From: Liolophura sinensis
Taxonomy: Eukaryota > Mollusca > Polyplacophora > Chitonida > Chitonidae
Reading direction: 5' to 3'
DNA: 64,000 nucleotides
Assembly: GCF_032854445.1 (NCBI RefSeq)
Contig: NC_088300.1
Coordinates: forward strand, 52,302,984-52,366,983
Made by a program: the position numbers and the translations under genes. The notes beneath the pieces are model-generated. The model was not told where the DNA came from, did no database searches, and was given only the letters and a program-made list of their open reading frames with translations. This document shows, piece after piece, positions 3,801 to 64,000 of this stretch (the stretch's first letter is position 1; each line of letters opens with the position of its first letter).

Positions 3801-6800
3801 TGATGCCTGATGTCTAATGGAGGTAAATATTAAATCCTTAAGTTATTTGGTGTGTTTCAGAATTACAATGCAAGAGAACAGAAAGAAAGCGCAGAAGCAC
3901 AGCAAATCCACAGTTTAGTTACAACTTTGAACCAGAAGTAAGTCTAGTTATGGCTACAGCCAAATGATAATTCAACTTTTCATTTTTATTTAGACTCTGA
4001 TGTGCCACACCGCTTTGTATCGTGAAAAGCAACAGTGATAAAAGCTATCCTGTCAGAGAGAGAAAATATCTTGACGAAAGTGCTTTAGATGAACTATAAT
4101 AGGAGTTCACCATAACTTTTTATCTCTATCTACTGCAGTCATTTAGATTGAAGACAAGTGCTTTAATCTGCAGATGTATATGTATTGTATTAAGTGTTCC
4201 ACATCTGGTTAAATTAGAGAATGTACAGAGCATGTAGACAGTTCACAGCATGTTCTATTTTGCAGTGCTCACTTTTGCAGTTTAAGTTTCCCACTACCGC
4301 AACTCCTCCTGTCTTCTGTATCTCTTTCTTTTCCTGTTGTTTCTTTTGTGCTTGATACTGAACAGGCAGGATCAGACTGAAAAATGTCAAAAACATGCTT
4401 GCTAAATTGACCATTTCATGATTGACAATCAGAACCATGGTTTACAGTATCTTTGAAGGTTTTGTTGAATGCCACCATTACTCGTAAGGTTGAGTAGAAA
4501 GTTGTGTTATAAATTAATGATAATCTCCCTCAGAAGCTGTTCAAGTTTTATTGTATTACAGTAAACAATGACCTAAAATTTTGTCCCAAATAGTGCATTT
4601 TAAATATCTCCCAAAGAAACCTGTAAATACCTCTCTTAAGATCAACAGAACTCTCTGAATCAGGAAAAATGAACAGCTTAGTAATGGATGAAATTCTAGG
4701 TCATTTAGTTTAATTTGAATTGAAAAACAAAGCTTGAGGTGGAAATTTCATTTATTTGTAAGCAGAAAACATGATATTCTACTCTGTTGTTTCTTCACAG
4801 AGAAAGCGAGTTACAAATTACCTAGCAAACACATTACCACCAGGTGTGAAGAGACCCAGAGGTAAGGAAATACCTGTTATTGCAAAATTAAATTTAATGG
4901 ATGATCCATTTTTTTCTATCTGCTTTGTGGAAGTTGGTTATCTTTTTCAGAAAGTATGGATGTTATGCATCTTGTAACATAAAGATGCATGCATTAACTA
5001 AATACGTGAAAATTGTAATTGACTGAAAACATTAAGTGAATAATAAGGGCTTAATGTTGGAATGAAAACTGTGAAATGCTTGTCTGTACAAAGTACAGGT
5101 GTAGCGAATGTCGTACCAAGAGTGTCGGCGTCCAATAACAGGGAAAGCAATGTTAAACAAAATATTAGGGGTGGTATCTTAAAAAGTATGACCAGTTTTG
5201 AGATCAGGGTTTGCTCACATGTAGAGCACAATAACACAAGGGGTATATTCCATCATTAATTCGTTTTGTATGTATTAATTGCAGTAAATTACTGAATTCC
5301 TGACGTAGTGTATTGTGTATTAGAATCATTGTAAAACAAAATGTTAGCTGTGATGTATCAGAAAGTACGGCATGTATTGACTTGAAGTGTTATGTGTGTA
5401 TAAAGCACAGTGATGCAAGGTTGATGTTCCTTCACCAATGTTCTTTGTTCGTGTTAGTTACCTTCAATTACCAAATCCACGATTTCGTTACGTATTGAGC
5501 TGAAACTTTGCATTGATGTGTTTCCTACAGGCGAGCCGTTTTGTAGCCCGAGAGCTGTGTGGACCCAATTCAGTTATAATGCTTGTGTGATAATAGTGTG
5601 ATAGATGTAGTCAGCTGAATGATACATGTTCATCATAAATAGTACTTGCTTTCATGTGTGAAAATGCAGAATATGTTTATCTACAGTAATAAGTGGTATT
5701 TCCTGTGCTGGGAAGTGTGTGATGTTTTGTTGTCAGACTAATTTCACTCTTAATCTTTAAACAGGTCGTCCTCCCAAATATGGCCCTTCCCCAAACAATA
5801 GTAGACCAACAACCCCTGATGGCTTGGCAGGAGTTTCGTTTAAAAATGGCTTTCCTAGGAATGGATTGGCAGATGTAAGTTATGAAGGCCGAGTATCTGA
5901 TAATAAATCAGTGATCTGCTGTTAGCTTTTGTTCCGTTTTCCGTGGATAGGGTTTGTTAGAGAATGAAACAGTTGTTACTCACTGACTACCAGAGGTAAT
6001 AATTGCTTCAGTTGTTTTCTGTAATATTTTGTTGTATTTCTGTCTGTATCAGGGTGATGTGCATGATGATTTCTGTGCGGTATGTCGGCGAAGTGGGGAA
6101 CTGCTGATGTGTGACACCTGTAGTTTAGTCTATCACCTGAACTGCCTGGACCCACCACTGGCCACAATACCATCAGGCATGTGGAGCTGCCCCAAGTGTC
6201 AGGTACATGTAGTCGCCTCCCTGTTTTGTATTCTATAAGTAGGGCTTTTTTGGTACTTTAAAGTATTTTAGGTATGTGTACATGTAGAATTTTGTCAGTA
6301 AAGTTCTATATGCAAAATGTAATTTCTTACAACAAAAATCAGCAGAAAAAAAAATCTGGTTTTTAATTTTTAAACTTACCCAGATAAATTGCCCATGGGC
6401 CCCCTAGTGTCTTGATCATTGATGAAGGAACAATAAAAACTGTGTACTGCCCTTACAAAACAAGGTTACATTCTCACCTTCTGCTTTAGAGCAATATTAA
6501 TGAAATGCCAGATTTGAGTTTAACTCTTGTGCCTCTCTGAAGTAAGGCAAATGACGTTTCAGAGGTTTTAGGTAAGCATGCAAATTAAATATATTGTAGT
6601 AGATACTCCTGGGCATGTGGTAATAATGGATGTCCTTTGAAGAATCAGGGATATTGTTTGCTTGTTGAATTGTATGTTATTTACCAGACATTGCTGTTTT
6701 CTTTGTAGCTCACTGGTATGAAGAGACCGCCTCCCTCCCCTGTTAACTCGGGAACTCTGGCTATTGTACATTCCTATTTGACCACCAAAGCTTGTAAGTA

Positions 6801-18414: not shown

Positions 18415-18759
18415 TTAACAGTTGTTAGAAATTGACATCTGAAAAGCTTGCTGGTCCTGGTCAGAAACTGTCACTAACTTTTGATGTCTGTCGCGGATCA
18501 GCGAGATCACCTCCTGCTTGTCAGTGAGGATTCGCTGTAGCAGAACACAGGCCAGAATCCCCATCACAGCAGCCGTCACCATGTACGCCACGGCCGATCC
18601 CGTGTAATGCACAATGTATCCCATCACAGCCGACAAGGCCACTTCGGCGGAGAAGTAAGCACTGTCCAACAAGGCCATGTCACCCGCTATCCCACGATTC
18701 CTCAGCTTGCTGTTACGTTCGGAAGGTGACAAGTGTGGAGAAGCGTCGAAGAAATACAC
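18415..18759 (-). other. Last coding exon of the SLC45A3-like gene
   Basis: This is a 345-nt exon read on the minus strand, beginning GTG TAT TTC (Val-Tyr-Phe) after an acceptor TTATTTGCAG and ending in TAA. It carries the last two membrane segments (about [19 protein letters not shown] and [18 protein letters not shown]) and a 30-residue charged cytosolic tail. The RGI-x-D-x-A-x-LDSA motif is the clearest link to SLC45A3. Confidence 0.92.
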
Positions 18760-19443
18760 CTGCAAATAAGAAGCATGTACATGTAATTATGAGTCACTGA
18801 AATCTCATCAAAACACACCATCGTAATAAGGAATTACCATAACACACGTCTGAATTTTTATATAATATTTTGCATTTCATCAATTCCGTTTACTTTCTCA
18901 GAGGTTAGCACCATACTCAAGGATTTTTCTTTTATATGATGGCGGTCATATGTGCTTTGTATACAGACACCATGCTACAGAATGCTGGGGAAGAGAGTTT
19001 ATTATCCTTTCAGGTTTTGATCCATTTATTTATTTATTTGTTTATTTGATTGGTGTTTTACACCGTACCCATGAATATTTCACTGGTCAAGTTTTAAGAC
19101 TGCCTAGAGTAAATCACCACCTTCTACAAGGTTGGGGACAACACTCATAGCAGCCACTGCAGAGATAATGTAATTCTTCAACCTTTTCGCATGTGTCCTA
19201 CATGTATTCTGTTTGCATATTCTCAATGTATTATTCTGTGCAGGCTGAAAAAATTATACTTTTTGTCAAGCCCTGAAATCGACCAACTCAGCTGGTGCAG
19301 TTTTGTCTTCAAATTCAAATGAAAAAGGTCCATAAATACCATACAAAATGTTTGAGACCTGAAATCGGGTCCGAATGACAACTGATCAGTTCAATGTAAC
19401 AAACAATCCTTTGGGGTGAATATTTTAAGTTTACTCTTCATTG

Positions 19444-19533
<90 letters not shown>

Positions 19534-21483
19534 GTGTGCGTGCATGTGTGTGTGCATGTGTGTGCGTGTGTGCGTGTGTGTGCGTGTGTGATCATATCAA
19601 TTTTCCTAAACCTTCAGCTTAACATTAATGTACCTGTTAATGCAACTTTCACGTATCATAATGTACAAAAAAAAAAAAATTATTTAATTCCCCATTTTTC
19701 AGGTACTGAGGAATTGATGAAGACATCTGTTATACCTGTACTTTATGCAAATCTATTTTTCATCAGTTATCATTTTAAATAGGTCTGTTATCGTAGACAT
19801 CCTCAGCAGAGCACACTGTCAAATTTTACAGAAATTTTCACCATATGTACTAATTATTTTCAATTCAATTCAACCGAGGGGAGTTATCACAAATACACAT
19901 GTGGAATTTTTCTAACCTACCTCCTTGTCAGAATGGAACTCTGTCACTAGAGTGAACGGTATAATGGTGATACAAGCGTACCCAAATCCTGTGAGGGACG
20001 CCATTAGTGTCACCAGGGTAATGCTCTGCAGAAACACCATACAAAACATGGCCACTGTGAAAATGGTCATGCCAAACACCAAGGTTCTACGTGGTCCAAA
20101 ACGCTCGGACAGGCGTTCCACAAATGGGGCGAATACTGCTGATACAATACAGTGGAAGAGCAAACCCCAGCTGCCCATTCTCACTCCCTGATCATAGAGG
20201 TCCCGCTCGTTGGAATTCTCCGGGGCATTGGGCCGGCCACCATACACCACCTGTCCCATGAAGTCTGTGTAGAAGAAGTTAAAGCCCATGACAGCAGTCC
20301 AGCAGCAAAAGTCTGCAATTACCAAATTTTTCAACACCACAGGCATGTCCCAAAAATGTTTCATTCTTGAAGGGAGATAGCTCACTATAATCTGTTGTAT
20401 GGATCTACAGCGGCCTCGAAAAAACATCACCAGTCTTGACCTAAAGTTAAGATCACAGTGTCTTGTAAATATATTACAAACAGGTTTTATAGTCACAACG
20501 GACTTCAGCATGTCGCTTACTGAGTTTGTCCTTTCAAAATGTTTTCTGTGCGGTATTTTGGTTTGAACAGACGACGCATTCTCAGAAACAGAAGAGTTAC
20601 TGCTGGTCTCATAACCAGACTCATGCTGACCAGTGTTAACCTCTGGGGGTATAAGTGTCTCACCGTCTAATTTAGACATCAGATGACAACTGTCTGGTAT
20701 CGAGATGACAGGTTTCTCTTCCGCAATGAGTAATGTCGCTAACATTGTAATACTGAAAAGCACAATAAGTAGAGAAAATGCAGACTGTTCTTGTGATGAA
20801 AAATAAAGGCCAAGCGAGCTGGTTTTCCAGTTAATGGCAGTGATGAAGTAGCCCAGGCATCCACCGAGACTAATCATCACAGAATAGACTGTAAAGATGC
20901 TGTCCTGTTGACTGGTACCTTTGGAGGCATCTGACAGAAGAGCTTCACATGGATTAAGGCAGGCCTGTGTTGTGAAATCTAGTAACACAACCCCAAAACA
21001 CAACAACAGAACTCCAAACGTTCGTCCCATTCCCTCCATTCCGAAGACTCGCTCCGTCAAAATCTGTGCATAGGGTATCACAAGCAGGGAAAGAATACAA
21101 CCTAAGCTGAGCGCCAGTATAAAAGGTCTTCGTCTGCCGTAAGAACTTCGGCACTGGTCGCTGGCTTTACCAATAGCAGGCACAAAGAACAGTCCGAGAA
21201 GAGGCCCGAAACCAATGACAAAACTCATCCTCGACTCGCTGAGTCCGGCCTTCAGAAGTAGTGGAGGGATGTAGGTGAAACCCGCCGAGGCACAAAACTC
21301 CAGGCCACAGACCACAGCATTCAACAACACCATCTGTAGGAGGGACAGGGAGGGTTTCTTGTAAGCCATAGCCACCACCTGCCCTCCTTCGCCACCATCA
21401 GACCTTACCAGGGGCAGGGTATCCATGGTGGAGTCTTGTCGGTTAACTTTGGCCCTATTCACCACCACTGATGTGGTTTCCAT
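18415..21483 (-). CDS. SLC45A3-like (prostein-like) sugar/proton transporter of the MFS
   Basis: Two coding exons on the minus strand: 21483 down to 19921 (521 codons), donor GTAGGT at 19920, then 18759 down to 18415 (acceptor TTTGCAG), phase 0, 635 residues in all. The start is secure: an in-frame TAA sits immediately before ATG. Features: a hydrophilic N terminus (1-45), first TM bundle from about 48, family signature YGRRRPFI at about 115-122 (the RRRPF motif of SLC45 and plant sucrose carriers), LLDFTTQ and ISLGGCLGY in TM5-6, a long Ser-rich cytosolic loop (about 258-380), then the second bundle. The last exon encodes [15 protein letters not shown] and [11 protein letters not shown], which align with the C terminus of human SLC45A3 rather than A1, A2 or A4. 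It is a plasma-membrane or vesicle-membrane protein; SLC45 members are reported to cotransport H+ and sucrose or glucose. The substrate here is not determinable. Single-domain orthology to A3 is likely, but paralogy within invertebrate SLC45 is possible. Confidence 0.93.
19020..19085 (-). mobile_element. SINE 3' fragment
   Basis: On the minus strand this reads GAAATATTCATGGGTACGGT, then GTAAAACACCAATCAAATAAAC and a run of AAATA units. It is the 3' end of the same family as 39565-39848, strongly 5'-truncated. Confidence 0.8.
19166..19328 (+). mobile_element. MITE copy lacking its right end
   Basis: The left end TAATGTAATTCTTCAACCTT and internal blocks (AATTATACTTTTTGTCAAGC, then CAGTTTTGTCTTCAAATT) match the copy at 49894-50104. 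The right inverted end is absent. Confidence 0.75.
19444..19590. repeat. (TA)n(TG)n microsatellite
   Basis: About ten TA units pass directly into a long TG tract of roughly 120 bp with interspersed TGCG and TGCA variants towards the end. It lies in the intron of the transporter gene and is expected to be highly length-variable. Confidence 0.97.
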
Positions 21484-24800: not shown

Positions 24801-25738
24801 AACTATCACAATGAGTTGAGACTATGCCAGAGTATTTCTATACCTTGGCTTGTATATGTCCACGTCATTTCGAATTAATGCAGTGCTCAGCTTTGTCTGC
24901 CCTGCCATAGGCTTAAGCATAAGTAGTTAAGCTTGAAGAAAACCATGATTCTCTGCTTTGTTTTATGTTTACAATGATGCAATGACATCAGGACTCCTAA
25001 ATCTTCAACCTTAAAGTTGGAAGGATCATTTTCCAAACTGTCACACAAGAAGATGAATATTACCAATCATGATCACTACTGTTGTGAAGAGGCCAACTAG
25101 ATCTCTCAAGCAATGCTGACGTATGGACAATCTTTCTGTTATGCCATAGCATTACAATTTCGTTTCACTGAGAATAAGGAATGACAAGTGAGAGGCCATT
25201 TTGCTCAAATGATCATTACTGCGTAAAAACAGAAGCATCAACTGTGGTAATTTCTGAATGTGCACCAGTGGGCTATTAGAGGGAAAATACAGAAAATTCA
25301 GTGTGAATAACTTAGTTCACAGATTTACAATCAGTCTCCATTTTGGTTGATGGCTGGTATATGAATGTCTGTATCTGTGCATAGTTCTGCTATAGGTCAC
25401 TTTAATATGTTTAAAGCATATAAACATGTAGTTTTATGAAATTCTGTGTATACACATACTGAGTCAGAAGATAATTACCCTGCTTCACTGCAGCGATAAA
25501 GAAGTATTATCTACACTTACATGAACACATGTGTCTATGTACGCTTTAGAGTTTACACCAATATATGTGTCCAGTCATTTTTATCTTGAGCAGCCTGCCT
25601 TTCTTCCATGAGCAATCCATGCCCTTCATACATTATTGTACTGTGAGTGTACAGTAACATGTAAGAGTTCAACTACAAAACCAGCTTTGGAGTCATTACA
25701 TTCAGTTCTCCGAGTTATGACTGCTTGTGTTTACAGGT
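21849..25738. other. Sequence upstream of the transporter gene
   Basis: No supportable exon. It contains a decayed array with about 151-bp period (23745-24175) and AT-rich unique sequence. A CG-alternating tract lies at 22819-22853. Confidence 0.55.
23745..24175. repeat. Degenerate tandem repeat, about 151-bp period, three copies
   Basis: The phrase TTGCATGGACAAAAT recurs at about 23786, 23937 and 24089. Each time it is preceded by a GTTTCATNAAA...TTCAGNACTTTNGNAGGA-like stretch. The third copy continues into GACAGACACAAGGACAGACG and ACTCTCCCGAACTTTGTT. I have an impression of similar repeats in other mollusc genomes but cannot verify it. Confidence 0.75.
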
Positions 25739-27066
25739 CCATACATGTACAGCCATAGGCATCCATGTATAGCCATAGGCATATAGTACATGTAAAACCA
25801 TAAGCTAGAATACATGTACAACCATAGGCATCCATGTAAAGCCATAGGCATACATGTACAACCATAGGCATCCATGTACAGCCATAGGCATATAGTACAT
25901 GTAAAACCATAAGCTAGAATACATGTACAACCATAGGCATCCATGTAAAGCCATAGGCATACATGTACAGCCATAGGCATCCATGTACAGCCATAGGCAT
26001 ATAGTACATGTAAAACCATAAGCTAGAATACATGTACAACCATAGGCATCCATGTAAAGCCATAGGTATCCATGTACAACCATAGGCATCCATGTACAAC
26101 CATAGGCATCCATGCACATCCATAGGCATACATGTACAGCCATAGGCATCCATGTACAACCATAGGCATACAGTACATGTACAACGATACGCTAGAATAC
26201 ATGTACAACCATAGGCATCCATGTAAAGCCGTAGGCATCCATGTACATCCATGGGCATCCGTGTACAACCATAGGCATCCATGTACAGCCATAGGCATCC
26301 ATGTACAGCCATAGGCATCCATGTACAGCCATAGGCATCCATGCACAGCCATAGGCATACATGCACAACCATAGGCATCCATGTACAACCATAGGCATAC
26401 ATGTACAGCCATAGGCATACATGTACATCCACAGGTATCCATGTACAGCCATAAGCATACATGTGCCACCATAGGCATCCATGTACAACTATAGGCATCC
26501 ATGTACAACCATAGGCATTCATGTACAACCATACGCATACATGTACAACCACAGGCATCCATGTACAGCTAGGGGCATCCATGTACAGCGACAGGCATCA
26601 TGTACAGCAACAGGCATACATGTACAGCCACAGGCATACATGCACAACCACAGGCATACACGTACAACCACAGGCATCCATGTACAACCATAGGCATCCA
26701 TGTACAACCATAGGCATCCATGTACAACCATAGGCATACATGTACAACTATAGGCATCCATGTACAACTATAGGCATCCATGTACAGCCATAGGCACCCA
26801 TGTACAACCACAGGCATACATGCACAGCCACAGGCATACATGTACAACCAAAGGCATACATGTACAACCATAGGCATCCATGTACAACCATAGGCATCCA
26901 TGTACAGCCATAGGCATCCATGTAAAATCAAAGGCATACATGTACAGCCACAGGCATACATGTACAACCACAGGCATCCATGTACAACCATAGGCATCCA
27001 TGTACAATCACAGGCATCCATGTACAGCCACAGGCATACATGTACAGCCATAGGCACACATGTGCG
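25739..27066. repeat. 20-bp minisatellite, about 66 units, with a 109-bp higher-order repeat
   Basis: The unit is CCATAGGCATCCATGTACAA (variants ATACATG, CACAGG, AGCC). Because 20 is not a multiple of 3 and the unit lacks stops, long frames of about 20-residue periodic Met/Tyr/Cys/Trp-rich peptide run in several frames on both strands. I do not regard these as genes. At the left end a 109-bp block containing CATATAGTACATGTAAAACC recurs at 25781, 25890 and 25999, so there is a second level of organisation. A related variant follows at about 26168. Confidence 0.97.
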
Positions 27067-28117
27067 TACAGACGACATGCGGTCTTTTCAGAATGTCAAG
27101 GCCAGGCAATCATTGATTATTGTCCAAAAACTTGTTTGAAATCATGTATGTGTATGACCAACTCCCCCTGGAGCCACAAGCTGTTGACTCAGGTACTGCT
27201 GTGAGTATTGACAGAATAACCTTAATGCCTTAATCCATTGATGATACAATGTGCATGTATGTATGGCTTGGTGTTATACGTCATACTTAACAATTTTTCA
27301 GTCAATAAATATTTCTTCAGATAATTTTTTTTACTCATACTACTGTATTGTAGCCATCTGTATATATAAAAAACACTTCACAACTGTAACTGTGATTAAA
27401 GTTGTACTCAAGAATTTTTCATTCATGTGATGGGGGTCAGGCTTACAGTTTATAGTTGGGTTGATATCAATCAATCAAAAAGATTTCACCTTAGTTAATA
27501 ATTATATGTTCAAACCAACTGTAGGGTCTACTCTGGTGAACTACACAGACAGCCTAGTGCAATCAGTAAGGCAGCTGACACACAGCCAGATTTTTGCACC
27601 TCTGACCTTGATATGTCAGTAGGGCCGCACCGCATCGCCTCCCTTGAAATCACTTTCCCACTTAAATAGCGCTTTTTTAAGAGCAAGCTGTGGTCAGGTG
27701 AAACATTCGAAAATGGTAAATTGCCAGTTTTGAAGTTAACAGGTTAAAGTGGCATAAACTAGATGGAGACCTATCTTGAAGACAAATTTTAATTTTGTAA
27801 AGCCATTTGGAAAGAATAAACGTTTTAAGCCATTTGAAGGAAATTTAAAAATTTCCCAACAAAAGGCATGTACTCGTACAACCAACAACAGACAGCTTCC
27901 GCAAACTCTGGTATGCAAACTCAACTTAAGCTGAAAAAAATCTACCTCATTTAACATCTCTTGTCAATCCTCTGTCTCACAGTGCATGACTGATGTCACG
28001 TATTTCTACATTCTATTACCTAGAAAACAGTATAGCAACTTCGTGACAAACCTTATACATAATGCATGCTACAAAACCCTAGGTCCCACTTCTCGGAGTT
28101 TCGTGTCACAAAAACTA

Positions 28118-33477: not shown

Positions 33478-33796
33478 CATACAATAATTTCAGGTTTATA
33501 TTTTAGGAATACATGTACTTCTCAAAATATGGCATATAACTGATGATTTTGTAATTCAGTCCCATACATGAAATATCAGGCAGGTAATTTTCACTTCAAT
33601 GTTTGCTTTACTGACTTAACTGTTGTGTCAAAACTGTTTACAGTAAAGCTTTGCTTGAAACCAAGGGAGTCGTACACGTACAACTTACAAGTGTGTCCAT
33701 TTGGAAATGAGTCTGTAACCGGTATATGGATTGGACATTTCCATCTATTGACAGTTCCCTGTAAGGCATCTCTCCCCTATGGAACAACCCCCTCCA

Positions 33797-34236
33797 ACAT
33801 TTCCCAATGGACATTTCCCCTATCTGGACAATCCTCCACATGGACATCCCCCCCCCCCCATATGGACAATCCCCAACATGGACATTTCCCTCATATGGAC
33901 AATACCCACATGGCCATTTTCCCCCATATGGACAATCCCCCACATGGACATTTCACCATATGGATAATTCCCCCATATGGACATTTTCCCCCATATGGAC
34001 ATTTTCCCCCACATGGACATCTTCCCCCATATGGACAACCCCCCACATGGACATTTCCCCCATATGGACAATCCCCCACATGGACATTTCCCCCAAATGA
34101 ACAATCCCCCAAATGGACATTTCCCCATGTGGATAATTCCACTAGGACATTTCCCCTATGGACATTTCCCCCAAATGGACAACCCCTCACATGGACATTT
34201 CCCCCAAATGGATAATTCCACTAGGACATTTCCCCT
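33797..34236. repeat. 17-bp minisatellite (CCCCCATATGGACAATC type)
   Basis: Alternating units CCCCCATATGGACAATC and CCCCACATGGACATTTC give a 17/34-bp hierarchy with variable C-run length. One plus-strand frame (33568-34215, His/Met/Asp/Pro/Phe repeats) and several minus-strand frames (Gly/Pro/Trp repeats) stay open through it. The same happens in other frames, which argues against coding. The strand asymmetry (C-rich on plus) is strong. Confidence 0.95.
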
Positions 34237-35198
34237 TATAAATATTACCAAATATAAATTCGTTTTATAAATGTAATCTTGAGGCTTATGCATGACTGTT
34301 GATTTCACTGTCTTATAAAAATTCGACTGTAACTGGTATTAGTGACACTGAGAAAGACTGGATACTACCACTATTGGGGATTAAAAACGAAGACTAGCTT
34401 TTGATCATCCCAACAAGCCGACCACTTCATGAGATGGTAGCATACTAATTATGACATTTACACCATGTTACTCACATTATTAATTAAGTTGTTTAGCCTA
34501 TCTTTTTTGCCATGAATTTTATGTTGTGCAAATATGTGATGCATGGAATACATGTTTATTAGCGGGGAATACTTCAATATGTCCAATGGGAAAAGATGGA
34601 ATTGACCATCAGGAGAGAGGATAGACCTTGCACACAAAACAGCCTGCTGACAAGTGGACACAGTGAAGTAAACCAGCACTGCTAAACCATAACATCTAGA
34701 GTGACAAGAGCCTGAGTACAGAATCAACAGATGCCAGATTTCATCTGTGCCACATGTGTAGTCAAACCACCCTACATGCAGCTTTAACACAGGATGTTGT
34801 TCTAACAAATATTTCCTCATAACCTAACAAAATTGCCTGCTGCAGGAGTGGGGGAAGAGAGTACTTCCTCTGCATTTCCTCTTAACTTTTAACAGAGCAG
34901 ACCTCAGTGTTCTCCACCCAGCCAACAACACCTTATATGTAGACATGCCATGAACATTATATGTAGTTAACAAAGGTATAAAGAAAGAAACTCTTGCATC
35001 AAGTCACAGCCAAAAAGCTCAGCTGTCAATAATATATCAATACATGGTGTAATTTTTTCAGAGACGGTATATATGTTGTTCAGAGTTCAGGAACATGCAA
35101 GAATTTTCATAACCATGCAAAAACCTTTTTTGGTTTTATTTTATATGGTTCCAATCAACGGTTTTGCATGTGTGCACTAAGTAACGGCAAAAGGCCGC

Positions 35199-44257: not shown

Positions 44258-47200
44258 GTCAAGGAAGACAGTTGATTATTCAGCATTTGAAGGAGAAGAT
44301 AATGATGGTACTTGAATTTAAGTAGTCCTATTTTATGGTTTGATTTATTTACATATGACACTGTTTGTTTCACTGAAGAATTTATCACATATATGAACGT
44401 GGTCACGACTCAGATTTTGGGACTGCATGGATCACTATGTTTGATATTTTGAGCTCTTCAGAGTGATGGCCTGAATAAAAATTGAGGTCGTTTTCATTTT
44501 GGGCCCTTAAAAATCAGTTCTGAGATCAAACCAGGGTCCTTCACCAAGTGCCTTAAATGCCTTGTCACTTAACTCTGCAGTCAAAACAGTGAGAGTTTAT
44601 TGGTCAGGGGCCTGACAGTCACAAGACCTGTATGCTGTGCACATCTCAGCCAGCAGCATTTTAATGTTTAATATGAAATCTCTATGCCAGGTGTCAGAGT
44701 GTGTTATGATAGAATTTGTTTGACTGTCATTGATGATGTTTTAAGGCCAATAAATTCAATTTTTTCTTTTAATATTTATATTTGATAACTCAAAGTTTCT
44801 CCTACAGTTGACATTATTTCTGTTAGTATAGTTCTCCTTTTGCTTCAGATTTTGTTTGGGAAGTGTCCAGAATGATATCAAAGAGCCAGGTGTTTCCAAG
44901 ATGTTCCCTAATTAAAACAGCTGTCTTCTAACACTCTCTGTTAAATCTTCAGATGATTTCGCTGATCCTACTCCGCCAACTAAAAAGGCAAAAGGGTCAA
45001 ATAAAGAAAACAAGATGAACAGGAAAAAGGAGGGTGAGCTTCCCAAAATCAAGTCCCAGGACAGAGGATGTGGCAAGTAAGATTGGTGTGGAAGGCTCAC
45101 ATAAAGGATACAGGCTCTAGTTGACCCATGAATGAGTGGGTTTAGGCTTGCCCAATCATATAACATGTTACTGAAGCTGACAATGACCATATTAACATTG
45201 TTGACAACATATTTACTACTCTGCCTACATTTATCTTCTAGTTCCAGTGTACTGATTGCATACATGTAGATCATCAGTGGGCTAGGAGGTTTACAAAAGG
45301 AAAAACAGAAAGGAAAATCTCTGAAGTCTCTAGTAAAGTCATTACAACAACAGTGTACATGTAACATCCCGGTTTGTATTTTATCATGGCATTATTTGTG
45401 TTTAGCTAGAAATAGAGAGTTATTATTTTTGGAATATTTGACACCCAAACCCATACAAGAACATTATTCAGAAGATGGAGCTTATGTTTAATCATTTTTT
45501 TTATTGTATTCTGTCCTCACCATGGTAGAAATGGCAGATGAACCCTACTCTAGTTGTTATTCCAATCTAGCCCAAGGGATATTTTCAGCCCTGTTTTCAT
45601 TGTCGTAAAGCCAAACATGGAAGTGTGGCAGACTGCTGTGTACAAGGTTCTGTGTAATAAGTGTTTGTAAATTAAGGACAGAAGGTCAATAAACTGTTTT
45701 TTATTTGCCCTACATGTGAGTTATTTTTCCTGTATAACGTACACCAAGGCTGAGTTGTGTTCTCATGTGATATTATCTTGCTGCTGATTTTGACAGAAAA
45801 TGGTGTGCAAGAGAATATAATCCTTCTGTTAGTTTTAATGTTGGTGCTGTTATTACTGTCTACCTTTTTTATTTTTTTACATTACTAAGTGATGCCATGA
45901 ATAATGGCTACATAGAGGGACTCCCTTTGAAGTTAAATCTTTGATTTATGTTGGATTCAGGGAATGCATTCACCCCCAATTTGAAATAGCAGTTTTGGCT
46001 TTTTAAAAGAAATTGATAAGTTACTAAATTTGTTAGAATCAGAGACAGGAATTCAAAATATGATTTTGAATTAGAAAGGTACACTTTCTAATATGTTTAG
46101 ATTTTCCAGCTTACATGTAATGTTAAATGCGTTTATAGAGTCATTGGATCACAACTAGTTACACTGTAGTACATGTTGACTAGATGATAGCACCACATAC
46201 CTGTAAATGTTCGTGCATGTATATGTCCAGCCAGGCACCAAAAAGCCATCTGAATTGAAAATCAAATTTTAGAAATTGCTTTTACCTTTACAGCAAGAAA
46301 TGCTGATGAGCTCAAGCTTTTTGTCACTAGCTTTGATAGCAAGTATCTCAAGAAACTGATTTCCTGGGCCCAGTTTTTCGTATGTGTATTAGCTAATACT
46401 GGTATTAAGTCGTATTTGATATTCAAAATTTTAACCAAACTCAGCAGCCAATGCCGTTGTCCAAAGCCAAAGTATAACAGCCGCAGTTTTAGTTCATATT
46501 TATTACACAGGTACTCAAGTTTTTTTGCAGGCTAAGTACAAAATTGAAGACTTGGCTTTAAAATTATGGTATTAAGTCTTAAACCTGTTTGTTTTAAACC
46601 AGCCTGACCCTGTACTGTATATTCTGTTCTTATTTTTTGTTTATGCTTCACAGCCGGCAATCCCTTGATGAAAAACTGTTTGACAGAGACCTAGAAGCTG
46701 CTCTAAAACTCTCTATCCTGTCATCAGCAGACGCTGATCTCACAGAAGTTGCTGTAGAAACTCACAGTTCTGACAAACCTGCGTTGTCTTCGACAACTCC
46801 TAGTGTAGAATCTAGAGGATCAGGTGTGACAGAGAGCAAGCGTGAGTTTCATCTACTTTTTAAAATTTATTTACAAATGTGATGTAAATGTATCGTATCT
46901 GACGCATTTTAAATATGTAGCTTCTTTCTTTCAGGGCACTAATGCCTTGAAAAAGAAAACACTAATACTTTATTTTCGTGTTTTCTTTGCCATTCATGTT
47001 TGGCGAGCAGAATGTAGCTCAGTGGATAAGATGAGACAAACAAGGTTCTGGTACAATCCCAGCTTCATACAGCAAACTTGTCTTTTTCCCAGCTCTCACT
47101 GTTTGTAATGGTCTTATATATTTGTAATGGTGGCAATAAGGCGATGACACAGGTTTGGACGAGCCATGTTGGCGGCTAAGAGGTGTGATTTTAAGGTAGT

Positions 47201-50200
47201 TTCTAAATTGAATACACTTTCATAGTCTAGTCTGTCAACTAAACAGAGCTGTTGCCAACTATAGTAAAATCATGCCTTTTAGCCGCATTATCTTGTTTGA
47301 GCCCCCTCCTTATTTTTCCTAAACCTGGGTGAACTGGCAAGATTCTCGAAATGCATGTCATAATTGTATGGTCAAGGAACACCATGAAGCTTTCATTTAA
47401 GTTCCATATGTGAAATCATGAACTCTCTTATTTGAGAAGTCTGACAAACTTTGTCATTGTGATATACGTAATGCATATCATATTGGTGGAAGACAAATGG
47501 CCTTCAGGCAAAGCTAGGATACCGTAAAGGAGGGTACTGTACTTCGCATGACAAAGTATTGTCTCACCTCTAATACTAAAGAGCGTAGAGTATGGATTAT
47601 ACGACATTGTGTTTCCAGTTTCTCTAAAACAGATTATCCCATGGCCTTGAGAAAAAATTCCAGATTAAAAGGTGATTTACTGAGTTACCAAGCACATTAA
47701 TAAAAAATATGCCTATATCTGTTTAGGTCTGTGTGTATCCTTCTTCTGAAATAACTTTGGTTTGGTTTTTTCTTGTCTTTTTGTTTTTAAATGTATATTA
47801 AAAGTGTATACGGATTATTTCATGTTTAGGAGTGGGCAAGTTGATAGTTGACTATCAACTAGATAGTTGACAAACACCTTCAAGATGAAGTCTATACAGG
47901 TGGGCCAGTGATTATTCATTTATTGATTGAAGCCTTACTTTAGCCAGAAATGACAATATAAGGCCTATAAGTGACATATTAGAATACCACACTCCATTTT
48001 TTGTGCTATTTACTCTTTGGAAATGTTACAAAAGCATTTTATGTGTTTTCATGATTTACCTGAAGTCTTTTTTCCTTTTTTCGTAGATTCTCTGCCATCA
48101 GTGGCAAAGCTTGATGATGAGATTATAGCGTTACCAGATGATCTCTCTGAGAATCCTCGAAAACGGAGGAAAGCTGCTGTTAAGCCCGTGAGGTATGATG
48201 ACGCTGACGATGATGATGATGCTGTGGAAGAAGAATGGAACCCAGCAAAAGCAGACAAACTGAATTCAGGGAATGGTGTGGAACAGTTTTATTTTATTGA
48301 GTGGTTAAATGGTGCCCAAGACCCTCTTTTATTAAATTAATGACTAGATTTTGCAGTCTGGCTTTACTGAGTGAAGCGTGTTGGTAACTATCTATTGGCA
48401 TGAAAGGAAAAATGTTCACGTGAATAGTTTTCGTATGAATGCCACATTCAGGGGGAGTAACTCTTTACTTGCTGTGACAGGAATAGCTTCACAGCTTCAT
48501 TTATTGTAGTATTAGGATTAAATTTTACAGGGATTAGGTTGGATGTCAAAGTGGCAAAAGATTTCTGTGAAAATGTGTGAATAATAAAGAATAATAAATT
48601 GCAAAGTGAACTTCTCAATGTTTTCTTCATGTTGGTATAAACCCCTCCATAATCTGTTACACATGGAAAAGTTTGTCCATGGCTTACTTGCCAGAGGTCG
48701 TTGGTTTACGGGCACTTTGGTTTGCTCCACCCATAAAACTGATCTCTGTTGGATAAATGAATAATTCTTATGTATGGGGCTAAATTATACATGATTTGCT
48801 TGTGATCGGATTTTAGGATAAATTATATAATGTAAAAGACGTCATCATTAAGTGCATTTTTGCCTCATACGTATAATGGAATCTGAAAATGCCATGACAA
48901 AAACATAGAACTGATAGGCCAAACTGTGAAATATGGCTTGTGATAAAAGGTTTTGTCAGATTTTGCCATGAGATTGATGTGGAAAATACTGAAGTGTAAA
49001 ATATATTTCACCATGTGATTTGTGTTGTAAATGGAACTATGGTTTATGAATCAAAGGGGGTATTTTTGGTGGGTATTCATCATGGATCCTTGTTAACATA
49101 CATGTGCCTTATGTGCACTGTGGTGTAGATATTTTGCTTAGAGCTAGTAGTAATCATCTAAAATTGTCTCTTCAGATGATGATGATGATGATGATGAAGA
49201 ATTTGATCCAGAGGACAGTGATTCAGATTATGGCTCATCCAAGAAAAAGAGAGGAAACAAGAAGACAAAGTCAAAACCAGTGACTAAGAAGGTTACACCT
49301 ACAAAAACTAAACTGAAGTCAAATGTAACAGGTAAGCCAATGTCTTATTCAGCATTGGTACCAAAAGTCAATAACATTGGAAAACATACAGAGCCTTATT
49401 TATTGTAAAATCATGGATCATGATTTTCTCAAACAAGCTGTTTTTTTTAAATCATTTACAGATCTTAAACATTTTAACACAAACTTAATGTGTTTTTGCT
49501 CATACACAACAACTGTATTTGGCTGAATATAACACTTTTTTTTTCTGATGATACACCAGTTACTCCAGTCCATCAGAAGAAACCTTCAGTGAAGCAGACT
49601 AATCCCAAGTCAACAACTAAGAGTTCCCCGGTCACACCATCCCATCATACACCGAGCAGAGTTCTCTCTGGCGGCCTTAAAAAGGCATGGGTGCCACCAG
49701 GTGAGGGGCCTCAGTCAGTCATACAAAGATATGTTCATACACAAACATTTGGAAACTGTCTACTCTTTGTCTTATTATTCTCATGATAAATAGCTTTGCT
49801 GTGAGACTTGTGTGTTTGAGATTGTTGTATATTCATTACAGACACTGTATTGAAAGAGTGTCCAGTCTCCAGTGCCGCAATAAAGATTTCCAGTACTGTA
49901 ATTCTTCAACCTTTTTGCTGGTTTGCCAGGTGTTCATTCAGACATATTCAAGAGCCATTATTCTATGTAGATTGATAAAATTATACTTTTTGTGAAGCCT
50001 GAAATTAGCCAGTCCAATCATTGTAGTTTTGTGTGATTATAAATGAGCATAAATTGCACTGAAAGTTGCTCTTTTATATGCGGAAAGGTGGAGGAATTAG
50101 AGTAGTGATGTTGTTTAATGAATTATGTTAACTTTGCTGAAAAATATTGACCCTGACCTGTGGGCAGCCATTGAGCAGAGTATAGCGAGGTTATTTTCAA

Positions 50201-56739: not shown

Positions 56740-56957
56740 GCAGCTATAAATACCAGCTGTAGTGTTAGAAGCAATGAGATATCATTTTCCCTGGTGCCTA
56801 TATAAGGAACTGGCTGGGGCAGCATGGTACACCTAGCACACATGTAGCTTCTTCAGGCTTCTACTCCCCCCTCCCTCCTAAACACATGCCGGCCAGGTCC
56901 ACTGCCGCAGACACACCAGTAGGGGAGACAGGCAGTGGTATAACTGTCAGAACACAG
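56740..56957 (+). promoter_or_regulatory. Candidate muscle-type TATA promoter and noncoding exon
   Basis: In 65 bp the plus strand has CTATAAATAC (56744-56753, MEF2-like, last base off consensus), directly followed by CAGCTG (56754-56759, MyoD-type E-box), then CTATATAAGG (56798-56807, TATA box and CArG-like). A transcript from about 56830 would run to the donor ACACAG|GTAACA (56957/56958) and could splice to the 5' UTR exon at 58124. This combination is typical of muscle-gene promoters and fits the protein encoded downstream. An ATG inside the exon (56886) would form an upstream frame ending past the main ATG, which weakens this exact splice choice. Confidence 0.45.
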
Positions 56958-58123: not shown

Positions 58124-61100
58124 TTTGTAACTGTAGATAACCGCCACAATGTCTGACGACGAACAGCAAGCAACGTAAGTCAAATAGTTTTGATTTTTAA
58201 AGAATTTTCATAATAAAGATACACAAAATCGGATCATAAATCGTAGAAAGTGTATGTGAGTGTTTTTTTATGACCCCAATAATATGACCATGTTGATCAA
58301 TATTTATTCATACTTTGTTTTACAATCTATTTGAATGTGTTGTGAAAATATGTAAATGTTTTCTTTTGATAAAGTAAAGAGAAAAGAAGTTTCAAAATTG
58401 TGAAATTACAGATGTATTAACAAAGCGTCAACTGTAATGTGATTGTGCGATGACAAAGTCTTTAAACTTACCTTTGATGGTCTGGCCTGGATGGTATTAT
58501 AAACATGTGCAGTGTTGGCCTGAGCAGCAATTATATTCATGTTTCATGTCAGAGATACAGTGTAGCACTGATACGTTGGTATTGATACAATAATTCTCTT
58601 GTGCTAGACAGTGTTATTTTTAAGCCCACTGAATATGAAACAGATCAAAAATGTCACTTATAAATACATGTAGATTATACCTTTGCAAATATCTTTCCAT
58701 TGAATGGAGCCACTGTCCGACTAATACTGTACATAATCCTTTAATGAGAGGAGTTGTGACTGCAGTTAAGAGTATTCGTTTCTTTAATACACAAGACAGA
58801 CATGTTCGTTTCACGTTCGTTTATTATGTTCAGAAGTAGTGGTGTTCAGGGGCAAGAGTGAGTATTACATTTTAAATTAAATTAGTTTATAATAAAAAGG
58901 AAGTTAATTTTTAAGGTTCATGTATCAGAATACAGCAACCTTCATATTTTTCTCCATGTATAATACAAGCAAGGATATGTGTTTCCCTGCTACAAGTATG
59001 CGGGATAGAGAACATTTAACCCGGTTGGAAGTGAACGATACCATAATAATGATATAATGAAAATAATGATAGAAAATGTTTCTGCTTGTAAATAAACGCC
59101 AGTCACCCTTCAGCGTTGTTTTTATACACTATGTTTTATATTCAGGGAGTCCGAGGCCCCAGTAGAACAGTAAGTTAAGCTGGAATGGTGTGACTGCATT
59201 TGTAGATCTATACACTCTCCATGATGACTCATGGGCTGATTTGAACTCAGTGCTTTTTAATCCAGAGAAAACTCTTATATGTGTCTCTGTGTAAGAAACA
59301 CAAAAGTCCAGATCAACCTCTGTTCTAAATGTGCCAGTAACCGGCATACGCTCCACCCCTCTCTTCTCATAACCTATAGAGAACTCTGTGCCCATCCTGT
59401 AGTGTGGCACTTCGCCAGTTCCACTAAGACTGTAACAGAGTTGTCATTTGTAATAATCATACATGCACCTGTGCTGGTCTCATGTCTTTAAGTAATGCTC
59501 TTTTCTAGATCAGGGTTAATTAGTAACCAAAGTATGTGTGTTAAGGATAGAGAAAGGAGTACTACATGTAGTTTGGAAGAACCCCACTGTTCCTCTAAAA
59601 AGATGTTCTAATGTTGAGTGAAAGAACCCGACTGATCCTTTGTTAAATCATGTAGCTTAGAAAATCCGCACTGATCCTGAATAAACTGGTCTGCTGTTGT
59701 TTAAAAGAACCTCACTTATCCTTTGTAAAACGAGTGGTACATGTAGTTTGAAGAAAATCCACTGATTCTCTGCTAAGTTATGAAATTGTGACTTGATTGA
59801 ACCCCATTGATCCTTTGTAAAACCAGTACTGCACTTGGAAGAACTTGGAAGAACCCTGTGCTGATCTTTTGTTAAAAGAAGAACAGCACTGCATGTAGTT
59901 TTGAAGAACCCAACTGATAACTGTAAAAACACAGTGCTACATGTAATTTGGATGGCCCTCACCTATCTTATGTCATGATATTCCTGTGATTTGAAAAAAG
60001 CTAGAAAGTATAAACAGTGTCCTCATGGTTTGTGATCAAGAGACTTGGTAATACATTTTCATCTGTATTGTCATCACTTGAGCTAATGATAATGAAATGA
60101 AAGTCTCACATTGGCTCGATATTTCAGCATTTCTCTGTTAATCTGTTTTGTAAATGTTATGTATGTTGAGTTAAAATGCATCATATCTAAAAAAAACAAC
60201 ACCCATACAGGAAAGAAAAAAGATTTACACCATCTCTGAAAATCTGTGGAAAAAATTGCCAACTTTACAAAGTTTCATGTGTAAGTATCATGATATGTAA
60301 TAATCCATATAGGATGTTTAAAACCTGTAAAAGAAAAAAATGACTACTTACATAAAATTTTCACAAAATTCTTGCTTATGTTGTTAACTGTTTTTATATC
60401 TCTGCAATAGGGAAGCACCAGCAGAGCAGTAAGTGTGTAGAATATCATAATTACACTCACTTAAAAATCAAGTGTTGCTCCCCATTACTTATGCTTAAGG
60501 TGTTTGAGTTTTGACTGCATAAATTAACATTTGCAGAATTGTGTGTACAAGTGTTACATGAAATAGCGTGTAGGAGACGATTATTATTATTGAATAAGTG
60601 TTACATGTTATACTTTAAGCACTGCATTCATAAATTCTCAAGCATCAGCTGTGTTTTGAGCAACACACTGTCTTTTAAGTGAGTGTATAAATAAAGTGTG
60701 TAATAGATCAATATGCCAGAGTTCTATAGTTTAGTCACCAGTGTGAATAGATCATATACACTTCACCACCCCCTCATTTCACTGTCAACTACACAACTCC
60801 CATTCTTTTGAATATTAATTTGACACAAAGGCAAGATGTGCCCCACCTGATGACCATAACATATGCTTACCCCATCTAACCCATTATATAGAAGTTAGAC
60901 TTACATGTACAAACTGAAATCTCTGCACTCTGTATGAAATTTCCCTCCTAAGGATTCTTTTCCCAGGATTGAACAAGTGTGCTATATTTTTTTTTCTTAA
61001 TTTACACATGTCTGACTCAGTCATAATAAATGGATTATTTGTAGCTTATTGTGTTAAGTGAATTGTCCAGTTTCTGTTAACTGTTTTCGTAAAACTGTGA

Positions 61101-61344
61101 AGTTAATGTTTCAGTAAGAGTTAAAACAAGTTGGAAACATCTCAGGTGGCTTGATAGCTGCTTTTTGTTTTTCAAAGATACAAAGTTAATGGTTTGTCTA
61201 ATAAATATTGCTTCTTGTGTGTAGTTGTACAGCTTTACATGTTCTGTTCATTAATGATATACAGCTTCAATTGTCTGTGCTATCTGCTATATTTGTGCTC
61301 ATAATGCCTTTCTCTTTTGCATCAAGGGAAGCAACTGGTGATCA
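58124..61344 (+). CDS. 5' end of an acidic muscle-type protein gene (troponin T-like?), microexon array
   Basis: Exons: 58124-58174 (28-nt UTR, ATG at 58149, A at -3), 59146-59169, 60411-60428, 61327-61344. Each ends in a GTAAGT donor and begins after AG; each intron is phase 2. Joined they read MSDDEQQATESEAPVEQEAP then AEQEATGDQ, and the gene continues beyond the window. Known of the family: arthropod and other invertebrate troponin T starts MSDDE or MSDEE followed by Glu/Ala/Pro-rich sequence, and in vertebrates this hypervariable N terminus is encoded by alternatively spliced mini-exons. The composition, exon structure and possible muscle promoter fit. No diagnostic tropomyosin-binding region is in the window, so troponin I or another thin-filament protein with an acidic leader is possible. 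The existence of the gene is more certain than its name. Confidence 0.6.
59146..59169 (+). other. 24-nt phase-2 microexon (ESEAPVEQ)
   Basis: Acceptor TTTTATATTCAG, donor CA|GTAAGTT. It encodes Glu-Ser-Glu-Ala-Pro-Val-Glu and two bases of Gln. Symmetric, so inclusion or skipping keeps the frame. Confidence 0.7.
59560..59965. repeat. Degenerate 46-bp tandem array in the microexon gene's intron
   Basis: AGAACCC(C/G)ACTGATCCTTTG variants recur at about 59578, 59624, 59660, 59706, 59753, 59799, 59850 and 59905, most at 46-47 bp spacing. TGTAGTTTG(G/A)A-like sequence often precedes the next unit. It lies between the 24-nt and first 18-nt microexons. Confidence 0.85.
60411..60428 (+). other. 18-nt phase-2 microexon (EAPAEQ)
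   Basis: Acceptor ATATCTCTGCAATAG, donor CA|GTAAGTG. It encodes Glu-Ala-Pro-Ala-Glu and two bases of Gln. It differs from the 61327 exon only in its middle and looks like an exon duplicate. Confidence 0.68.
61327..61344 (+). other. 18-nt phase-2 microexon (EATGDQ)
   Basis: Acceptor CTCTTTTGCATCAAG, donor CA|GTAAGTG. Starts GGAAGCA like the previous exon and ends in CA. It encodes Glu-Ala-Thr-Gly-Asp and two bases of Gln. Confidence 0.65.
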
Positions 61345-64000
61345 GTAAGTGGCACAAGTTATTTGGCGACTGTGCTCTAACCTTTGTTAGATTCCTACAA
61401 ATTACAAGCTTCTCTAAGCAGTCACTAAGATCAGATTGTTATAATGCTTAAGTTAAACTCCTGGATACTTGCATGGTCTGGCAGAGTATCCTGTTTGCCT
61501 TAAATCTGATAACAGACAATATTTGTGACCATAGAGGAGGTAGGATAAAGGATAAATGTGACAAAATTCAGAAGCTTGTAATGCGTATATAGTCCAGTGT
61601 AGCCATCTTAGAACTTTACCAGAGTGACCTCCCCTACACTGTCCTTTGTGGCTGTAGCAGCTTGTATTTCATTAGCTGTACTTGTTACTGTGGTGCTTAT
61701 TTAAAACATCACCCACAAACCTGTAGAAAGGGTTAGACTGAATCTACAAGTGGAGGGTTGTCTTGGCTCTTAGTCTGGAAGTGCAGACTGTCTGCTCTGA
61801 ACTGATAGATCATGATAGGGAGAAGAGAAACAACTTATAAGCTTATACTTATAAGCAAAACTTATAAGTATCAGGTCATAATACGTTTCAGCCTAACATC
61901 GTTAGATCTGAAGCAAAGTTATCATGGATATATCATTAATGAAAATTTTATAGAAAGCTGTTATGCACAGAAACAATCTGAAGTAACCCATAGGGCTGAT
62001 TGTGAAATTAAGTTGCACATGTATACATGCCAAGCTGGAAGGTCTGTGTTAGTCCTTAATTTAGTTATAGCACAAATATTTATACATTTTTGTTGACAAT
62101 TAATTGGGGTGACATGAGCTGTGTTTATAAAGGCTCTCCATATTGAAATGTTAAGAAAAATGTCATGCAGTTTGCAAGCTATATACCCACCCTCACTGCC
62201 AAATTATTAGTTTTCTCTCCCCCCCCCCCATGTCTTTGTTTTATTAGATTATTATGTACTTCTTTTAGCATTCTCTGCCAGTTTGAAGTGTTCTGTCTGC
62301 ATAAATCCTGTTTTCAGGCTTCCTGTCTGTATTGTAATATTGCAGGTCTGTCCCTGAAACACACCACATCTGACACTTGTGTTGTTAAACATGAGTGTGA
62401 GATGTTTTCAGGTGATGACGATGGCGCCTAACTACTGGAATTTCTTGTATTTAATTTCTCACTTTTTTTGTAGGACAGTCGTTAAAACGTGTTTGTCTTT
62501 TCCTCAGATGGCATCTAAGTACTTTTCTTACAGGCTATTAATCTGCTGTGTATAAGGTGACATTCTGAGTCAGTGGGAGTGTTTACTAGTAGTTCCTCTG
62601 ACAGGAACAAAAGTTTATGTTATATGTACACGCATAGTATGTTGTATGTTTTGTTGAGGAAGTTTACATGACATTGTTTGTTTCATGGTAGAGATGATAT
62701 ATGATGGCCAGGTGGGATTGATACATGGAATTGATCTCATATCTATATTGATCTTCTTGTTGCATGTTGTTCGTTTCTTGTCTGTTTTTGTTTATTGAAT
62801 TGTTCCTCTAACTGTGTCATACTTCAGTAACCGCAAGTTTTATACATGTATGAAACAGAAACAACTGGTTTGGCAACATTTATATGCATTTTTGCACATA
62901 TCTTCTAAATAACACTGAACATCACCACCATCCTACGTCATTGCTTCTTTTTGACCTGACCGTAATTACAACTGTTGTGTGTTGTAATGCTGTCATGTTA
63001 TGCACTTAAAAGTGTTGCTGCTGAGGAGTTTATTTGGACAGAAATATATGCAGCAAAAACTGTAGTGCCCCTTACAAGCAGTATTGGACAATTTGTAATA
63101 TAGGGTACCGTAAATTGAAACAACTGTATAGACGTATTATATGACTTTGGTGCAGCATTGCACACATTATCAAAACTTGTCTACAACTTCCATCGGTAAA
63201 TTCATTCTCCTGTTACCTTAGAAGAAGGAGTAGCCATCTTTTTTTTTTTTTTTTTTTTTTTTTTCTGATACAGCTACATGTAGGGGTACAAAGACTTTTG
63301 ATGTCAGTTGATTATCACCTGACAGGTGCTTGTCTCTACTAACCAGTGGTGAAACCCATGCCTATAAGACTGTGGTCCTTGCTGTTTAAACAGAAACATA
63401 TGGAAAAAAAGCATTTCTCAGGATGAGTCTTCAAGTAGAGCTGAACAGGCTAATTATATGCATTAATATGGATGTTTGAAGAGGTTCACATGAGTAAAAT
63501 CTTTAAGAAGTGAACAGCTTTATTATCTGCATTAGTGTGAGATTGCCTGGAAAACAAAACAAAACAAAAATAGGTTATAAACTTTAAAGTAAACACAATA
63601 TGATCGGTAGCTCAAAACTTAATTGGCAGGTGAATTATTTTATCGTTATGATTCTGGCAGATTTGGAGAACCTGTTACCCACTAATAACAACACTGTACA
63701 ACTATGGCCAGGTACATGCCAATAAAATCCTAACCCATACATGTGCAGCTATAGGAATATACCAACTCCTTCCTATGTCCTGTTTATGTGTTTACATGTA
63801 TGTATCTGTATATAGTGATCATGTCTGCATATTCAGTGTGGCCTGACACATCCAGTAAATGAAATTCTCCCTTGACAAGAGACAATATCTTCAGGTCAAA
63901 TATACTTTGTTTTTACTGACTTGGTTTACATGTACTGTATCTGAGTATCTGTATATCATAGGGGATGTTTTGTCCATTTAATGTATGTCAGAATCTGTTT
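61345..64000 (+). other. Intron of the microexon gene to the window end
   Basis: I find no further segment of the form AG|G...CA|GTAAGT and no splice-bounded acidic or helical exon. Present are a C11 run (62219-62229) and a T26 run (63239-63264). The remaining exons presumably lie downstream of the window. Confidence 0.5.
63239..63264. repeat. Poly-T tract of 26
   Basis: Uninterrupted T run. There is no recognisable SINE body of the local family beside it, so it is probably a simple homopolymer or the tail of an unrecognised minus-strand retroelement. Confidence 0.9.

Follow-up and report, generated by a model that had tools for sequence, protein, structure and literature searches.

The chiton Liolophura sinensis carries, at the 5' end of the only troponin T (TnT) locus found in its assembly, an array of five symmetric microexons which, by analogy with TnT genes of other animals, probably serve in part or in whole as cassette exons that set the length and charge of the N terminus. 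The array (m1-m5) lies between the start exon E1 and exon E7 (Table 1). It begins within the 64,000-nucleotide stretch of genomic DNA that was analysed, here called the window, and extends past its end. The species was first published as Liolophura japonica, a name that the authors of the chiton assembly later corrected to L. sinensis (PMC12441733). The assembly also has eight matches to the haemocyanin beta-sandwich domain (PF14830), not known outside molluscs, inside 12 kb of a single contig, as befits a mollusc.

The gene is identified as TnT from the sequence of its downstream exons. A six-frame Pfam search of the whole assembly placed a Troponin domain 8.2 kb beyond the window end, on the + strand like the microexons, and a gene model was assembled from exons read with AG and GT borders and consistent phase, with 50 kb of further sequence to take the reading past the window. 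The model comprises 16 exons on the + strand from 58124 to 75488 (window numbering continued past 64000), and with exon E15a left out it yields a complete open frame of 348 residues with AG and GT at all junctions and consistent phases; the donor of E10, CCG/GTTCGT (the slash marks the exon border), is weak and the boundary of that exon is uncertain. The encoded protein matches the Pfam Troponin family (PF00992) with an E-value of 1.5e-10 (41.9 bits, above the curated cut-off, which is 26.2). In a PDB search it recovered cardiac TnT at the top (E 2e-11), then cardiac and fast TnT chains, with the best TnI chain reaching only E 2.2e-4, which places it nearer to TnT than to TnI. Its predicted layout is also that of a TnT, with an acidic tail, a long charged stretch rich in K, R and E encoded by E8-E10 (T1), and a putative heptad T2 region, the Pfam domain spanning residues 190-264. 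The earlier note likened the layout to that of troponin T; the gene is indeed troponin T, and the exons past the window do not encode an unrelated protein. We rejected a gene other than TnT on the Pfam Troponin and PDB TnT matches, and a TnI identity on the wide lead of the TnT over the TnI chains. When the C-terminal 167 residues of the protein were used to search the assembly, two places came up, both of them exons of this same gene, and at the sensitivity of that search no second TnT locus was found. One other Pfam Troponin match is present in the assembly, at C6:80739173-80739280 (E 6.3e-4) on the same contig and 28 Mb away; reading it by eye we take it to be a TnI exon, and its open frame continues into repeated units.

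Table 1. Features of the chiton TnT gene, in window numbering continued past 64000 unless marked otherwise
Feature	Position	Strand	Description
Muscle-promoter-like cluster	56744-56807	+	MEF2-like CTATAAATAC at 56744, E-box CAGCTG at 56754, TATA/CArG-like CTATATAAGG at 56798
Start exon E1	58124-58174	+	End of 5' UTR, ATG at 58149, MSDDEQQA, ends in phase 2 at AC/GTAAGT
Microexon m1	59146-59169	+	24 nt, phase 2-2, ESEAPVE(Q)
Microexon m2	60411-60428	+	18 nt, phase 2-2, EAPAE(Q)
Microexon m3	61327-61344	+	18 nt, phase 2-2, EATGD(Q)
Intron m3 to m4, first part	61345-64000	+	Reaches window end
Microexon m4	64460-64498	+	39 nt, phase 2-2, opens GGA, closes GC/GTAAGT, EEAPSAPAPAAP; past window
Microexon m5	66518-66547	+	30 nt, phase 2-2, TEEIKPSAA; past window
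E7	67563-67596	+	34 nt, phase 2 to 0, ends the array; past window
E8-E15b	68327-75488	+	Rest of TnT model, stop at 75486-75488
E11	72154-72372	+	Troponin domain exon; past window
E15a	75169-75252	+	28 aa, frame-neutral C-terminal exon
E15b	75318-75488	+	C-terminal exon with stop, 65 nt from E15a
Whole TnT model	C6:52361107-52378471	+	Genome coordinates

The five microexons that follow the start exon are consecutive, small and frame-neutral, and all have phase 2-2. The start exon and m1-m3 are just as the earlier note described them in length, phase, borders and peptides: each of the three microexons starts with GGA after AG and finishes CA/GTAAGT, and the closing Q of its peptide borrows the first G of the following exon. 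The acceptor of m3 ends in TCAAG, and the remaining acceptors of the gene end in CAG or TAG. All 32 of the 32 subsets of m1-m5 are in frame and free of stops; depending on the subset, the tail through E7 is 20-63 residues long and carries a net charge between -5 and -14, in line with the proposal of an acidic N terminus built from frame-neutral microexons. The eight combinations of m1-m3 counted in that proposal are indeed all in frame, but because m4 and m5 sit past the window edge the size of the array and the number of isoforms had been set too low, and the ceiling is 32. A scan of the introns for stretches that are open in phase 2, start with G and have a consensus-like donor and a pyrimidine tract gave nine candidates, namely m1-m5, a second reading that overlaps m5, and three more that are not acidic. 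Candidates at 62605, 63962 and 66668 were rejected, as they encode no acidic residue and lack other support, and an alternative m5 donor, TAC/GTAAGA, was likewise set aside, as its use would make E7 read ACA TGA. A degenerate repeat of ~45 nt, of the ACATGTAGTTTGGAAGAACCCCACTGATCC type, lies at 59552-59964 in the m1-m2 intron.

That the microexons are chance open stretches bounded by AG and GT, never spliced, is hardly credible. The pattern AG/GGA...CA/GTAAGT occurs at three sites on both strands of the 64 kb, these being m1, m2 and m3, and not once on the + strand of 100 dinucleotide-shuffled versions of the window, figures which describe rarity rather than give a clean P value, as the pattern was defined after the exons had been seen. 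With CA, GC or AC allowed before the GTAAGT, four sites are found on both strands of 108 kb, all four of them inside the array. A blind scan of the + strand of the 108 kb for AG...GTAAGT stretches of 12-45 nt, open in phase 2 and with a length that is a multiple of 3, returned 13 candidates; the nine that fall outside 58100-67600 show that such stretches do arise by chance, but all four within that interval open with GGA, encode peptides with at least two acidic residues, and connect without frameshift to the start exon and the body of TnT. With no preset pattern, a repeat finder applied to 59140-64000 placed m1-m3 in one 27-nt family (70-81% identity to m2). This grouping also counts against a different account of their likeness, in which it stems from a low-complexity acidic tail of E, A, P and Q, an acceptor-side G, and selection for GTAAGT where the last exon base is not G, with no tandem descent. 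We regard this account as quite possible, though not as the one to be expected. It draws on several observations: GGA amounts to the acceptor-side G and the beginning of a Glu codon; the introns have no common sequence beyond chance; and GTAAGT is present at 6 of the 8 TnT donors whose last exon base is non-G and at none of the 7 with G (Fisher P 0.007, 15 donors). Where a phase-2 border cuts a codon just ahead of its last G, the exon ends in a base other than G, for which the perfect intronic half GTAAGT seems to compensate; since such compensation also accounts for GTAAGT, the identical donors can do without duplication. What speaks for descent is the exons themselves, as the joint similarity of m1-m4 exceeds that of codon-shuffled exons that keep the borders, under three nulls (P 0.0050, 0.0024 and 0.0052), the last of which permutes the codon order within each exon and preserves its composition and borders. 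Likeness beyond composition thus characterizes m1-m4, with m5 outside the test. Between single pairs the likeness is weak, the lowest of 10 uncorrected P values being 0.0235 for m2-m4, 0.027 for m2-m3 and 0.052 for m1-m2, and m5 was similar to none of m1-m4 in the pairwise tests. Over ~200 nt of intron flank, 3 of 30 comparisons gave P 0.02-0.03 and none gave a lower value, which is about chance but compatible with an old duplication; two of these three comparisons involve E1. We infer that copying is likely but old, because m1-m4 are jointly alike and yet their flanks agree at about chance level. The exon sequences lend moderate support to a shared ancestry of m1-m4, with m1, m2 and m4 looking like copies of one ancestral exon of the EAP type and m3 probably another. 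Of the earlier argument for tandem duplication, then, the likeness of the exons stands, and that of their borders can be explained in another way.

How the exons are used and regulated, and to what effect, we infer largely from other TnT genes, and use as cassettes is the likeliest reading because the chiton array has a like place and a like character to the known alternative exons of TnT. Inclusion of some or all of m1-m5 would be set by muscle type or stage, and would alter the length and negative charge of the tail; such variation may, on the model of vertebrates and insects, tune tropomyosin affinity and the calcium sensitivity of the thin filament. It is unlikely that the microexons are real but constitutive, so that a finely split gene makes a single chiton TnT N terminus. 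The splice sites would suit such a gene: the splice sites of m1-m5 match CAG/GTAAGT at 6-7 of 9 positions (6-8 of 9 elsewhere in the gene) and have a pyrimidine content of 0.65-0.80 (elsewhere 0.60-0.75), so that skipping is not predicted from weak sites. Small exons, moreover, occur throughout the gene, 10 of the 16 modelled exons being at most 51 nt, including E12-E14 near the 3' end. Constitutive splicing would, however, have to accommodate five successive symmetric exons of the same phase in the very place where vertebrate and fly TnT splice alternatively. It also runs against the prior from Drosophila, where 31.1% of classified microexons are constitutive and ~69% alternative, the alternative share among longer exons being 9.8% (PMC8042270). 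Of the splicing-factor motifs counted up to 250 nt from m1-m5, YGCY has a density per kb of 12.0 on the upstream side and 14.3 on the downstream side (7.8 in introns, 9.2 in the 108 kb) and TGTGT one of 5.6 upstream and 7.2 downstream (4.6 in introns, 2.8 in the 108 kb), counts made without a significance test and given no weight here. RNA-seq from foot and heart exists for this species (BioProject PRJNA973839, foot sample SAMN35319766; PMC11068029). As to where cassette use came from, the array might be orthologous to the vertebrate TnT mini-exons and represent an ancestral bilaterian device, an idea that is improbable in our view. The two share the gene, the place in it and the acidic character, and the 5' alternative exons of human TNNT3 are mostly of one phase class (PMC2447309). 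In the full-length PDB search the cardiac TnT chains 9e2e_K, 8uww_E and 8dd0_K align from query residue 1 or 5, but the N-terminal 63 residues alone have no PDB match even at E 10. Exon 5 of vertebrate TNNT2 is phase 1-1, as against 2-2 in the chiton, and this difference leans toward an independent origin, making the 'ancestral version' of the vertebrate exons envisaged in the earlier note doubtful.

More tentatively, and still as something we would call somewhat unlikely, molluscs or chitons may have independently evolved a five-exon combinatorial cassette through repeated copying of a 2-2 microexon of the EAP type. If so, a single TnT gene could provide up to 32 N termini for different muscles, and the chiton cassette would parallel the vertebrate and avian arrays, which differ from it in phase. 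Besides N-terminal splicing, vertebrates possess three TnT genes (PMC8559874); if its cassette is used, the chiton would be a clear example of a single gene supplying every muscle through the choice of microexons. Because the phase and position of exons can be read from any genome, the array also makes it possible to test whether animals evolved N-terminal splicing of TnT a single time or repeatedly.

The remainder of the gene has further features of its own. A motif scan combined with reading of the sequence found a 64-bp cluster, ~1.3 kb ahead of the start exon, that looks like a muscle promoter, and a 5' UTR exon ending at ~56957 possibly follows it. Downstream of the Troponin domain and ahead of the C terminus, exon E13 (36 nt, 73258-73293) is also symmetric with phase 2-2, and TnT isoforms may vary there as well. 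At the 3' end, the peptides of E15a and E15b are alike (9 of 24 residues identical, BLASTP E 4e-5 in a single comparison); a Pfam search with these two exons alone gave nothing at E 0.1. E15a is possibly an optional C-terminal segment, in loose analogy to vertebrate exons 16 and 17.

Elsewhere in the window, an exon at 5987-6235 (+) encodes a PHD finger (Pfam PHD, E 2.5e-12) and resembles PHF21A/BHC80. Long open frames at 18418-21483 (-) encode a multi-pass transporter, whose first 189 residues match MFS_2 below the cut-off (E 1.9e-5, 23.9 bits against 27) and which seems SLC45-like. Upstream of TnT, exon-like open frames at 46598-49783 (+) encode a nuclear-looking, charged low-complexity protein; three pieces of it gave no Pfam match at E 0.1, and it may resemble RAD51AP1. 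Repetitive open frames on both strands at 25705-27201 and 33547-34267 suggest minisatellite arrays.

Alternative N-terminal exons of TnT are already known in vertebrates and insects, and the chiton array would be a molluscan case. In molluscs, no TnT N-terminal exons of such kind were found by title and start of abstract among the open-access papers listed, outside which most subscription papers lie. Scallop TnT, the other molluscan TnT considered here, has a higher level in the striated than in the catch part of the adductor muscle (PMC5963113), and the account drawn on here gives no N-terminal exon structure or TnT splicing for it. In Drosophila TnT (upheld) the alternative Glu-rich N-terminal exon 3 depends on Muscleblind (PMC2238819), and an exon 10A is reported (PMC13322953). 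The chiton gene is like that of the fly in being an invertebrate TnT with an acidic N-terminal exon region, which in the fly is alternative. A 3-bp microexon has reportedly been described in Drosophila TnT, and we know of no array of five symmetric similar exons in that gene. Insect TnT carries a long Glu-rich C-terminal extension (PMC7581897), unlike the chiton protein, which ends ...GQSAGEATEAAE. The N-terminal exons of vertebrate TnT are alternatively spliced (PMC2447309; PMC8559874), and in fast TnT this concerns exons 4-8, the altered acidity of the tail affecting calcium sensitivity and tolerance of acidosis (PMC8559874). Vertebrate TNNT3, with alternative exons 4-8 and a fetal exon, resembles the chiton gene in family, in the location of the exons near the 5' coding end, in their acidity and in their being mostly of a single phase class. 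The peptides of vertebrate N-terminal exons are mostly Glu; those of the chiton differ from TNNT3 in being composed of E, A, P and Q, in exons of phase 2-2 whose alternative use is here predicted. Avian fast TnT has as many as seven P exons, which carry repeated motifs rich in His and Glu and are described as specific to birds, with reported developmental splice-in (PMC7581897). As repeated small N-terminal exons in one TnT gene, these are the best parallel for the copies in the chiton, from which they differ in that the chiton motif is of the EAPAEQ type, without His, and its splice-in would be expected by analogy.
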